Shown here: positions 27,020 through 58,355 of the stretch, one piece after another | Position numbering within the stretch: the stretch's first letter is position 1 | Layout of the letters: each line of letters opens with the position of its first letter | Assembly: GCA_016191145.1 (NCBI GenBank) | Contig: JACPPD010000003.1 | Location: 248,001-312,000, forward strand | DNA from: Ignavibacteria bacterium | GTDB taxonomy: Bacteria > Bacteroidota > Ignavibacteria > Kapaibacteriales > Kapaibacteriaceae | Direction: 5' to 3' | Length of the DNA: 64,000 nt | Notes under the pieces: generated by a model | What the model was told of the DNA's origin: nothing | Database searches by the model: none | The model's input: the letters and a program-made list of their open reading frames with translations, nothing else | Program-made: the position numbers and the translations under genes

Positions 27020-27163
27020 ATTCCTGCTATTTTTGTGAACACAAATATCGCTCTCTGCGGTATTTCTCTTTTAACCTGGGCGACATCAGAGTAACACTGA
27101 GGTACATGAAATGTCATGCAGGTGATTAATCATTCCCTAAACTCATTACAATTCAGGACAAAC

Positions 27164-30163
27164 ATGAAGAACGGGGCATCGCTACGTCTTCTCTGCCTAC
27201 TGTTAGTTGTTACCGTCGGAGCTGGAGCACAAACACAATTTGAAATTGTTCGTTCAAAACTCAGGGCAACCTACGATCGAAAACTTCCCGATGGCACGAT
27301 TAAGGAAAGCAAACAAGTCAAGCGTTGGGAATGGTTTTGGGAGCCACGGCTAACGCCAAGTGGGGACTTTCCAACAGCATTACATTATTACAATGAAGTA
27401 CAAGCCGTAGAATCGCGTAAGAAGTCCGAAGATGTGCAGGCAAAGCCTACATGGAAGGAGCTCGGCCCCACTGCGCCAGATCTGCCAAGCGAATCCGCAG
27501 CATGGAATGGTATTGGTCGGGTCAATACATTTACATTTTCTCCTAGCAACAGCAACATTATCTGGCTTGGGTCTGCGCAGGGTGGCATTTGGAAAACCAC
27601 CGACGGAGGTGGCAGTTGGTCGGCAATTAATGTGAACGGATTCCCAACATTTGGTGTAAGCGACATTGCAATATCTGCGAGCAATGAAAACGTTATCTAT
27701 GTTGCCACGGGCGACGCCGATGCAACGTTTCCTGGAGAAATGTCATCGTATCCAGGATTTACATACGGAGTAATCAAATCAACCGACGGCGGAGCTACGT
27801 GGTCGGCCACTGGTCTCTCGATGACTCCAGAACAGAACAATGTTATTGCGCGGTTGTGGGTTGACCCCAGTAATGCTAACATCGCTATTGCCACTACCTA
27901 TACGGGTTTACGGAAAACAACCGATGGCGGTGCCACGTGGAATTTGGTTTCTGCTTCCTTACAATTTCGAGACCTTATTGCAAACCCATTTGCATCCAAT
28001 CAGCTCTACGCAACTACATTTTCAAATGGTGGCGGTGCCAGTATTTTCCGTTCGTCTGATGCAGGGAATACGTGGACATTGATCCTGAGTGTAGCCGAAG
28101 CCAATAGAATAAGGCTGGCAGTAACTAAGGACGATCCGAAAATTGTTGGCGCCGTTGCATCAAGCGCTTCAACCAATGGTTTATTTGCTATTTATAAGTC
28201 TTCAGATTACGGCTTGACGTTTGTTAAATCCGTTCCTCCGCAAAACCTTCTTGGATGGTCTGCCACCGGTAACGACTGGCAGTATGGAGGGCAGGGCTTT
28301 TACGATTTGGCTATGGAGATTTCGCCAACTGATGCCGATAAATGGTTTGTTGGTGGGGTTAATGCCTGGAGATCTACAAACGGTGGACAATCGTGGGTTC
28401 TTTCAGCCGATTGGACTGGTAACAATGCTCCTTGGGTGCATGCTGACCATCATTTTATGAAATATTCGGCAACACAAAATGTGATTTACACCGCTTCCGA
28501 CGGAGGTATTGCCCGGTCGACAAATAATGGCGTGTCGTGGCGAGATGTGAGCAATGGACTAAAAATTCAGCAGTACTACGGGCTCTCAACAACTGACATG
28601 AATTCCACTCTCACGTTGGCAGGTGCACAGGACAATGGGACAGCTCGGACGTTAAACGGATCTGTTTTTTATCATGTGCTTGACGGCGACGGGATGGCCA
28701 GTGCAATCGACTATGACGATCCATCGCTAATGTATGCAAGCATGCCATACGGACAATTCTACAGTTCATCTAATCAAGGCAATTCGTGGCGATTAATAGC
28801 AAATGTTAATGTACTGGGTGAATCCAATAGAGCATGGGTAGCGCCGATTGTTGCTGATCCAACGATGACGGGAACTGTTTACGTAGGCTACACGCAGATA
28901 TACAAGAGCACAACTAGCGGAGCATCATGGCAAAAAATTTCTCAGATCCAAACAAATGCTGCCATGAGACTCATTGCTGTGGCTCCTTCTGATAATAATT
29001 TTATTTATGTTGCTTATAACAGCACCATTATGTTCACTACTGATGGTGGGACAACGTGGTCTCAGCAAAATGGTATTGGATCATTCATTCAGGATATTGA
29101 AGTACATCCAACAGATCCAAGAAGATTTTGGGTTGCAATTGGTGGCTTCAGCGCCTCGACCAAGATTTTCGAGATTAACAACGGCAAGGTTACTAACATT
29201 ACAGGGTCCGGTCTTCCCAACGTTCCTGCCAATGCAATCGTGTTTCAAAAGGGACCATTGAATAGACTGTATTTAGGTACGGATATCGGCGTCTTTTTTA
29301 AAGACGAAGGATCGTCGTCCTGGGAGATGTATGGACAGGCAATGCCCACAACTGTTATCACGGATATGAAACTCGTGTCTACTGCAAATAAGCTGAGAGT
29401 ATCCACCTATGGCAGAGGAGTATGGGAAGTTGATGTAACACAGTGTATTGCAAGTGTTCCAAGTATCACAATACAAGGTGCGTCGACTATTTGTTCAGGC
29501 GATACCATCGTGCTAAAGGCATCAAGCGGATACGCACAGTATCAGTGGTCGAATGGTGAGACTGGCGATAGGATTAAACTCAGCGCTTATTCTCAGACAG
29601 GCGAGTACACCGTTACCGTCGAGGATTTTGCCGGATGTCGAAACGTTTCTGTACCAGTATCGGTAACGATTCTCAGGGGCCCGATTAAACCCCAGATCTC
29701 ACTAAAACAGCCCGACACTCTCCGCTCAAGCGCTATAGGAGGAATAACTAAATTCCAGTGGTATTTAGGCGACTCAAAAATTCAGGGGGCAACATCACGC
29801 CAATTTTCACCTTCGGCCAGTGGATTGTATAAGGTTGAGGTTGAGAATAGCGAGGGATGTAAGGCTATGTCGGACCCATTTCAGTTTGTTCTGCAGCCGA
29901 CGTCTGTTGCCGACGGTGGATCGGCTTCGACCTTCAGGGTATGGCCAAATCCTGCAACAGGTCAAATAGAGATTCACATGCCGACAGGCTCAGGGAGGGC
30001 GATTGAAATTGTGTCGATTACTGGTGCAATACAGGTGGTGCGTAATGTCGACGGCGGCGTTTCCGAAGAAGTCATCAATATTGAATTCTTGTCAGCAGGC
30101 ACTTATGTGCTGCGGGTACGCAGCGGTGAGTCGATTTGGTCGACATTATTTGTTAAACAGTAA
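27164..30163 (+). CDS. Secreted sortilin/BNR-repeat (beta-propeller) protein with T9SS C-terminal sorting domain
   Basis: Signal peptide MKNGASLRLLCLLLVVTVGAGAQ, repeated SxDGGxTW (KTTDGGGSW, KSTDGGATW, KTTDGGATW), C-terminus VWPNPATGQIEIHM...GTYVLRVRSGESIWSTLFVKQ. Confidence 0.9.
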   Translation: MKNGASLRLLCLLLVVTVGAGAQTQFEIVRSKLRATYDRKLPDGTIKESKQVKRWEWFWEPRLTPSGDFPTALHYYNEVQAVESRKKSEDVQAKPTWKELGPTAPDLPSESAAWNGIGRVNTFTFSPSNSNIIWLGSAQGGIWKTTDGGGSWSAINVNGFPTFGVSDIAISASNENVIYVATGDADATFPGEMSSYPGFTYGVIKSTDGGATWSATGLSMTPEQNNVIARLWVDPSNANIAIATTYTGLRKTTDGGATWNLVSASLQFRDLIANPFASNQLYATTFSNGGGASIFRSSDAGNTWTLILSVAEANRIRLAVTKDDPKIVGAVASSASTNGLFAIYKSSDYGLTFVKSVPPQNLLGWSATGNDWQYGGQGFYDLAMEISPTDADKWFVGGVNAWRSTNGGQSWVLSADWTGNNAPWVHADHHFMKYSATQNVIYTASDGGIARSTNNGVSWRDVSNGLKIQQYYGLSTTDMNSTLTLAGAQDNGTARTLNGSVFYHVLDGDGMASAIDYDDPSLMYASMPYGQFYSSSNQGNSWRLIANVNVLGESNRAWVAPIVADPTMTGTVYVGYTQIYKSTTSGASWQKISQIQTNAAMRLIAVAPSDNNFIYVAYNSTIMFTTDGGTTWSQQNGIGSFIQDIEVHPTDPRRFWVAIGGFSASTKIFEINNGKVTNITGSGLPNVPANAIVFQKGPLNRLYLGTDIGVFFKDEGSSSWEMYGQAMPTTVITDMKLVSTANKLRVSTYGRGVWEVDVTQCIASVPSITIQGASTICSGDTIVLKASSGYAQYQWSNGETGDRIKLSAYSQTGEYTVTVEDFAGCRNVSVPVSVTILRGPIKPQISLKQPDTLRSSAIGGITKFQWYLGDSKIQGATSRQFSPSASGLYKVEVENSEGCKAMSDPFQFVLQPTSVADGGSASTFRVWPNPATGQIEIHMPTGSGRAIEIVSITGAIQVVRNVDGGVSEEVINIEFLSAGTYVLRVRSGESIWSTLFVKQ

Positions 30164-30250
30164 AGAATGTGCCGATAACGCCTTTGTCAAACCGCAAAGA
30201 ACGTGTCGATAACGCCTTTGTCAAACCGTAAAGAACGTGTCGATAACGCC
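30149..30250. repeat. 34-bp tandem repeat, 3 copies, spanning the convergent 3' ends of the BNR gene and mnmA
   Basis: TTTGTTAAACAGTAAAGAATGTGCCGATAACGCC / TTTGTCAAACCGCAAAGAACGTGTCGATAACGCC / TTTGTCAAACCGTAAAGAACGTGTCGATAACGCC at 30149, 30183, 30217. Confidence 0.95.
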
Positions 30251-31330
30251 ACCGCCAACAACATCATCTCCGTCGTACACTACTACGGACTGACCTCGCG
30301 CGATAGCTTTTCGCGGTTCATCAAACCGCACATGTAGGGTGCCCTCATCATTAACCCAACAAATCCCGGGGGCACCGGCATCTTTATAACGAATTTTAAC
30401 ATTAAACCGCTGAGGCTCTGATAACTCTGCAACTTTCTGCAGATTCACGGAATGTGCAGTTAGTGCGTTATGGTAGAGTTTGCCTTCCAACCCCACTTCA
30501 ACTGTATTTGTTTCCGGGAGCACATCAAGCACAAAAAGCGGCTCTGAGTGCGCGATACCAAGCCCCTTACGCTGACCTATTGTATAAAACGGGAATCCCT
30601 CGTGTTTTCCGATAACAGTCCCATCAAGAATAATGTCGCCAGGTGCGACTTTTTGGTTGAGATCGTCGACGTTGTCGCGCAAAAATCTTCGGTAATCATT
30701 ATCGGGAATGAAGCAGATTTCAAATGATTCACCTTTGTTTGAAAAATCGAGCCCGAGGCGTGCGCCTTCGGAGCGCGACCGTTCCTTGGTGAAGCCGGAA
30801 AGAGGGAAGAGCGTTCGCGACAGATGCTCCTGCCTGACGCTCCAAAGCATATAGCTTTGGTCTTTTTGTTCATCGCGACTGCGCCGAATCCACCGTCGGC
30901 CCGATGATGCGTCGAAACCAATTTCCGCGTAGTGTCCGGTTGCAATAAACTCGGCTCCAAGCGCATCTGCTTTACGCAGCATTTCTTCCCATTTGATTGT
31001 TCTATTGCAGCGTACGCACGGATTAGGTGTATTTCCATCGAGGTAATCCTGGATGAAATAGTTAATCACCTTCGACCTGAAGACCTCGCTGAAATCAACC
31101 GTGTAGTGGGGGAAGTCGAATTGCATCGCCACCTTGCGGGCGTCATTGATGCCATCAAGGGAGCAGCACGACGAGTCGTTGCCAACATTACCCCCAACGT
31201 CTTCGTAGCGGTAGGTTTTGATGGTGATGCCAATGACGTTGTATCCCTGTTCGACGAGCAAGCCCGCGGCAACGCTGGAATCGATGCCGCCGGACATACC
31301 GAGGATGACTTTGTTAGGGTCTCGAGTCAT
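30221..31330 (-). CDS. mnmA: tRNA-specific 2-thiouridylase MnmA
   Basis: VILGMSGGIDSSVAAGLLVEQGYNVIGITIK, PNPCVRCNRTIKW, FATGHYA-like FIATGHYAEI, TIGQRKGLGI. Confidence 0.96.
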   Translation of the reverse strand: MTRDPNKVILGMSGGIDSSVAAGLLVEQGYNVIGITIKTYRYEDVGGNVGNDSSCCSLDGINDARKVAMQFDFPHYTVDFSEVFRSKVINYFIQDYLDGNTPNPCVRCNRTIKWEEMLRKADALGAEFIATGHYAEIGFDASSGRRWIRRSRDEQKDQSYMLWSVRQEHLSRTLFPLSGFTKERSRSEGARLGLDFSNKGESFEICFIPDNDYRRFLRDNVDDLNQKVAPGDIILDGTVIGKHEGFPFYTIGQRKGLGIAHSEPLFVLDVLPETNTVEVGLEGKLYHNALTAHSVNLQKVAELSEPQRFNVKIRYKDAGAPGICWVNDEGTLHVRFDEPRKAIARGQSVVVYDGDDVVGGGVIDTFFTV

Positions 31331-31353: not shown

Positions 31354-31432
31354 CAACTTAAAAAAAACACCATACCATCACGATGCCGGGTATCAAGAGA
31401 TACCCGGCATGGTTGTAAACGTGGTTTTTTTT
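31354..31432. terminator. Bidirectional terminator-like hairpin with flanking A- and T-tracts
   Basis: A-tract, ATGCCGGGTATC-AAGA-GATACCCGGCAT (12-bp perfect stem, 31383-31410), then GTGG + T-tract; lies between divergent genes. Confidence 0.75.
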
Positions 31433-50681: not shown

Positions 50682-51504
50682 GCCTGTGAACTACTCGCTC
50701 ATTTTTATCGGTAGTTAATATCACAAGGTACATGCCTGACGGAATGTTGTTCAATGTGAACGCAATCTGGCCGTCGCCTGTGCCGCGGCGGACGTTTGAT
50801 GCTAAGTCTGCAGGTTTTGTGCCCGACAAATCAAACAGAGAAAGATTGAGCATTCGGCTCGCGGCCAACTTGTATGCAATGGTAGCCCCTCCGTCGGCTG
50901 TTGGGTTGGGATACACGCGACTGTAGCTTAAAGGTCCTTCCGACGTTCAGGTCTCTTGCAATGCTGGCTGATGAACTGATGATGCATCGGCTGGATTCTT
51001 TTCCTTACGATACACGAGGACAATTTTACTGCTGTGAATGAGATCGGGGAATCTGAGCATGTGTTTATTGAATCGCTCGGTAGAGTCTATCCTCCTAAAA
51101 TAGATGTTCATATCATTTAGTTGTTTTAGAATGGTGTTGGCTGACTCCAAGGCTATAAGAGTAGAATTCATAATGGAATCAAAATAGAGGGTTTTAAACA
51201 TTGAGCGGATGGAATCCAAACGTACATCCGTAGAATTCAAAACGGAATCAAAATTGAGAATCCTAAACATTGAGCGGATGGAATCCAAACGTACATCAGT
51301 AGAGTTCATAACGGAGTCGATATTGAGTGTCTTAAAGATTGAATCGATGTGTCTGTTGTTCACCGACGTGCCGATGTTCAGGCTTTGCAAAACTGAGTCT
51401 ATGTTCACCACCTGCAGTACGGAGTCCATGTTCAGCCGATGAAGTATAGAATCAATGTTAATCTCATCGGTTCTCTCAAAATTTACACTGCCATTGGATT
51501 TGCG
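50668..51504 (-). pseudogene. 9-residue-repeat secreted protein with T9SS sorting domain, split by one in-frame TGA
   Basis: ORF 50947-51429 (...HQPALQET*) and ORF 50668-50916 share a frame; between them TSEGPLSYSR-VYPNPTADGG is open apart from TGA at 50947-50949. Frame open to 51504 with no ATG upstream of 51429. Confidence 0.7.
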
Positions 51505-58237: not shown

Positions 58238-58251
58238 GCAAGCAACAAGAA

Positions 58252-58355
58252 CATGCCGGGAGGCATATGCTGCCGGGTAACATGCCGGGAGGCATATGCT
58301 GCCGGGTAACATGCCGGGAGGAATATGCTGCCGGGTAACATGCCGGGAGGAATAT
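58252..58355 (+). repeat. 29-bp tandem repeat, 3.6 copies, with hairpin potential in each unit
   Basis: CATGCCGGGAGGCATATGCTGCCGGGTAA at 58252 and 58281, one-base variant at 58310, partial at 58339; no spacers. Confidence 0.95.

Follow-up and report, generated by a model that had tools for sequence, protein, structure and literature searches.

Bacterial short tandem duplications and minisatellites, which arise by slippage or illegitimate recombination, show exact-length head-to-tail copies, stepwise gain at a single locus and divergence by point mutation. In those used here for comparison, the repeat sits inside a protein or a promoter. Spontaneous rearrangements in Salmonella include frequent duplications, generally at short repeats (PMC3411829). 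A second related phenomenon is the turnover of overlapping genes by stop-codon movement, in which overlaps between adjacent genes are gained, lost and resized (PMC2174442, PMC3887535, PMC4161906). Overlap models invoke change through point mutation or relocated stops and starts (PMC2174442, PMC4161906), and a 2014 paper remarks that published work had treated the creation of overlaps, not their loss (PMC4161906). Work on the fate of overlaps in Salmonella tallies separated pairs; a term search of that paper gave no hit for duplication (PMC3843671). Word searches of the literature, of partial coverage, found no paper on the loss of overlaps, or the separation of convergent genes, through tandem duplication of a shared end.

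The window, a stretch of 64,000 nucleotides from the genome of an Ignavibacteria bacterium, contains a 34-bp tandem repeat at the junction of two convergent genes. The repeat has the features of the bacterial tandem duplications listed above, and the class of mutation is ordinary (short tandem duplication). Unlike the minisatellites, the unit covers the 3′ termini at which a convergent gene pair overlaps, and the outcome is that a gene overlap is lost. The locus also resembles overlap turnover by stop-codon movement, but here both coding ends are intact and it is the DNA between them that grows.

The repeat array and the two genes

Three head-to-tail units of 34 bp, without indels, span the junction between 30149 and 30250 (period 34, 3.0 copies, score 169 in Tandem Repeats Finder). 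A second repeat search gave the identical three units in register. The units (U1, U2 and U3) differ pairwise at five (U1-U2), four (U1-U3) and one (U2-U3) of the 34 positions. Identity at period 34 is 62/68, compared to a maximum of 36-38/68 in 10 simulated windows searched at periods 20-119; the similarity is far above chance. With adjacent head-to-tail copies above chance, the array is a minisatellite-type short tandem duplication, and it is present at one place only in the 2.47-Mb genome. The threefold repeat with stop codons described in the initial annotation is thereby confirmed, with one stop in use in each outer unit. The features are listed in Table 1.

Table 1. Features of the convergent junction (window coordinates)
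Feature	Coordinates	Strand	Content and evidence
Sortilin/BNR-repeat protein gene (BNR gene)	27116..30163	+	Secreted, C-terminal T9SS type A sorting domain; ORF; PF15902, PF18962
Repeat unit 1	30149..30182		BNR gene 3′ end (FVKQ-stop); relic mnmA ending GVIGTFFTV-stop on the - strand
Spacer between opposed stops	30164..30220		57 bp, formed by the two added copies (2 × 34 - 11)
Repeat unit 2	30183..30216		Used by neither gene; CAA in place of the TAA stop of the BNR frame
Repeat unit 3	30217..30250		mnmA 3′ end (GVIDTFFTV-stop); relic BNR ending FVKP-stop
mnmA, tRNA 2-thiouridine(34) synthase	30221..31330	-	ORF; PF03054, PF20259, PF20258

The gene calls are sound, as the match to the T9SS sorting domain TIGR04183 in the BNR protein (model positions 1-72 of 72, residues 942-1015) runs through the last residue, 1015, and the mnmA product scores above the cut-off of the MnmA equivalogs NF001138/TIGR00420. 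The conserved C-termini of both proteins are preserved, TIGR04183 to the last residue and PF20258 of MnmA to residue 363. The BNR gene has a syntenic orthologue in 10 family genomes. Its stop is located at base 15 of unit 1 (TTT GTT AAA CAG TAA), and the mnmA stop, on the opposite strand, at base 5 of unit 3. Both gene endings are present, in some form, in all three units. The BNR frame reads FVKQ-stop, FVKPQ and FVKP-stop in units 1, 2 and 3, and the mnmA frame reads GVIGTFFTV-stop, GVIDTFFAV-stop and GVIDTFFTV-stop. The ORFs and the unit translations agree with the earlier reading that unit 1 combines the BNR stop with a reversed mnmA-like ending and that unit 3 holds the current mnmA end (GGC GTT ATC GAC ACG TTC TTT ACG GTT TGA).

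Comparison with relatives

The comparison set contained one genome per species; the neighbouring genomes are among MAGs labelled Candidatus Kapaibacterium or Ignavibacteria. In the nearest relative compared, the congener G001 (JAGVJW010000208.1, L033), the MnmA and BNR proteins are 91% and 87% identical in amino acid sequence to those of the window, and gene order, orientation and neighbours are alike. The G001 junction has one 34-bp unit, and within it the BNR gene and mnmA have 11 bp in common (endings ESIWSTLFVKQ-stop for BNR and GVIGTCFTV-stop for mnmA). The alignment of the two junctions has a single clean gap of 68 nt with well-conserved flanks on both sides. The arithmetic of the spacer is exact, as 57 - 2 × 34 = -11, the overlap of G001. 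The initial annotation had predicted single-copy relatives in which the stops overlap, and G001, with orthologous genes, is such a relative. Its single copy and the exact arithmetic also support the proposal that both genes once ended in one overlapping 34-bp stretch.

In the congeners G002, G005 and G004, the two genes overlap by 24, 24 and 21 bp, in single copy and with no repeat. Since the pair overlaps without a repeat in all four congeners that have mnmA (11, 24, 21 and 24 bp), parsimony indicates that the single-copy overlap is ancestral for the genus. With this overlap in the reconstructed ancestor, a spacer equal to the added copies minus the overlap and both C-termini kept, the junction is a case of an overlap converted to a spacer. 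Six genomes that belong to other genera of the family have the BNR gene and mnmA at distances of -14, -11, 0, +4, +16 and +36 (the partner gene of one of these, G011, is cut by the contig end), and the spacing ranges from -24 to +57 across the family. The FFTV ending of mnmA is specific to the species pair of the window and G001; the other congeners end differently and still overlap (-24, -21, -24). No recognisable mnmA was found in the genus member G003 (98% complete) by protein and TIGR00420 searches; nearly all other relatives have the gene.

Order and probable mechanism of the duplications

The units were polarised with G001 as outgroup. Nine positions are variable, five of them within the array; at the remaining four (3, 17, 18 and 32), G001 differs from all three units. 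U2 and U3 together carry derived bases at positions 11 and 24, U1 carries them at 6 and 20, and U2 has one at 13, with no homoplasy and no conflict. As U2 and U3 have two derived bases in common and U1 has two of its own, the pattern indicates two sequential duplications, the first separating U1 from the ancestor of U2 and U3 and the second U2 from U3; this branching order is given by two plus two substitutions among few variable sites. A single-event triplication is contradicted by the same pattern. At 4/34, U1 and U3 have diverged less from each other than the fourfold sites of mnmA have between the window genome and G001 (0.34). This fits duplication later than the separation from the G001 lineage, a timing that is rough because the sites are few and the units partly coding.

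We propose that an ancestral single overlapping junction underwent two successive tandem duplications after the split from G001, giving the 57-bp spacer, and assign to this reading a probability of about 0.93. In the ancestor, the junction would have been a single 34-bp stretch with an 11-bp tail-to-tail overlap of the BNR/T9SS gene and mnmA at unit positions 5-15. Once the G001 lineage had separated, a first tandem duplication of the junction would have given two units, which diverged, and the mnmA-proximal unit would then have been duplicated again. The left gene would end in the first copy and the right gene in the last, each at its own stop. A duplication across both 3′ ends should thus be harmless at any length, with divisibility by three irrelevant. 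The overlap would become a 57-bp spacer with protein lengths unaltered, and each end copy would be freed from coding for two proteins. This anatomy suggests why the duplication was tolerated: each gene retains an undamaged end copy. At position 6, U1 has a change that is synonymous for the BNR gene and affects the relic stop of mnmA. U3 has one at position 11 that is synonymous for mnmA and replaces Q by P in the BNR relic. In U2, the middle copy, the BNR-frame stop is already gone. These substitutions match a released constraint.

The microhomology at the breakpoints, read by eye, is CGTCAA/CGCCAA, a 5/6 match spaced 34 bp apart and offset by two bases. Because it is weak and imperfect, replication slippage, or illegitimate recombination of a similar kind, can only be inferred as the event behind the duplications. 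The Salmonella duplications (PMC3411829) also arise spontaneously, but the verified ones had at least 11 bp of junction microhomology. Of the initial proposal that slippage duplications arose from one junction, the duplication stands, as two stepwise events in place of one triplication, and slippage is the presumed route.

Tandem arrays elsewhere in the genome and genus

In a survey of 792 kb (0.8 Mb, about a third of the genome), a crude ORF caller identified 97 convergent junctions, of which 26 overlap; the sample contains 51 tandem arrays. The array at 30149-30250 is the only one of the 51 that lies over two opposed stops. Two further duplications in the sample span a gene-gene junction. 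In L126 (11029-11176; 80 bp × 1.9), the duplicated stretch takes in both the stop of a T9SS-tailed gene and the ATG of the co-directional gene that follows; this junction is single copy in G001. In L146 (16639-16710; 36 bp × 2), the repeat lies across a 16-bp co-directional overlap, and the downstream gene has its RBS, start codon and initial residues (MRTLLVFTIT) in two copies. The congeners yielded no orthologue by which to polarise it. As two other arrays span gene-gene junctions, junction duplication may recur.

The density of tandem arrays is 5.3 per 100 kb in this genome and 6.3, 7.7 and 10.3 per 100 kb in G001, G002 and G005. A 400-kb sample of G004 (L168-L187) has 0.5 per 100 kb, ten-fold below this genome and the three congeners. 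An excess of arrays specific to the host, seen against G004 only, vanished when G001, G002 and G005 were sampled. The host genome is not unusually repeat-rich; its density is like that of three of the four sampled congeners. Loss of repair genes was considered as a cause and rejected, as mutS1 and recJ are present here as in the congeners.

Other repeats were observed in the course of the survey. A dispersed family of 29-bp tandem arrays, of approximate sequence TGCCGGGAGRCATATGCTGCCGGGTAACA, is located at 58250-58355 of the window and, for example, in L148 (10694-10834), L132 (2222-2370) and L125 (340-474). This genome has 53 matches to the family and G001 has 29, against none in four other congeners and 16 other relatives, and the family looks lineage-specific and mobile or expanding. 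A perfect 12-bp inverted repeat, ATGCCGGGTATC-AAGA-GATACCCGGCAT, is located at 31383-31410, where mnmA and a thioredoxin-like gene diverge; ATGCCGGG is common to its arms and the 29-bp family. At 51160-51342, an in-frame 69-bp tandem repeat (2.7 copies) lies within a coding region.

Alternative explanations

The duplication could have been kept by selection, since it does remove the overlap and might thereby free the ends from conflicting coding demands, or keep the two convergent transcripts from colliding or overlapping in antisense. The later substitutions fit relaxed constraint, and the spacing varies across the family. Against this, the case is one lineage and 34 bp, the congeners retain overlaps of 21-24 bp, and the 26/97 convergent junctions that still overlap in the 792-kb sample (crude ORF caller) argue that overlap is tolerated. 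We regard selection as unlikely, and neutral slippage, with neutrality itself inferred, as the most likely and most economical explanation.

Tandem arrays do contract, and only one close relative was compared, so that three copies might be ancestral, with G001 and the other relatives contracted by two. However, every other congener with mnmA is single copy and overlapping, and the G001 unit has ancestral bases as in U1 at positions 11 and 24 and as in U2/U3 at positions 6 and 20. A collapse would need several template switches, because the G001 bases match different units at different positions. We consider this reading very improbable.

Equally improbable is a function for the repeat as a bidirectional terminator, a binding-site array or an RNA structure. 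Its location between convergent genes is where terminators are expected, but the array is found nowhere else in the genome and is absent from relatives, and the two coding ends explain its sequence. No inverted repeat was found in the array, and no terminator site, with none beyond shuffle expectation. The folding z-scores of the array (-0.7 to +0.86 against shuffles) give no signal. An intrinsic terminator or RNA element was rejected on finding neither a stable hairpin with a U-tract nor a structured fold, and a CRISPR or dispersed repeat family on the single genomic location and the lack of spacers. Finally, an assembly artefact is conceivable, given that the repeat is short and the assembly has multiple contigs. 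It is the least probable reading of all, as the units differ from one another by one to five substitutions, the array is only 102 bp long, both genes are intact and the unit phylogeny is internally consistent.

Discussion

The loss of overlaps is less studied than their origin (PMC4161906), and this junction, read as two successive duplications of a single overlapping end, is a worked example in which the ancestor, the order of the intermediates and the outcome are readable. Its interest is as a clean, fully polarised case of overlap loss and not as a new type of system. Duplication of both stops separates the genes with product lengths unaltered and yields non-coding DNA of known origin. Tandem duplication of junctions may be a general, protein-silent way for compact bacterial genomes to shed overlaps and gain intergenic DNA; we would put the chance of this at somewhat below even. 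If true, such duplications would be tolerated at any length, with one intact end per gene and relic stop codons as a readable record. Junction duplication is seen at the convergent 11-bp overlap described here, and possibly at L146, with its 16-bp co-directional overlap, and at L126, a near-abutting co-directional pair. Because both relic stops and copies remain recognisable, how often this route is taken can be counted genome-wide in any clade.
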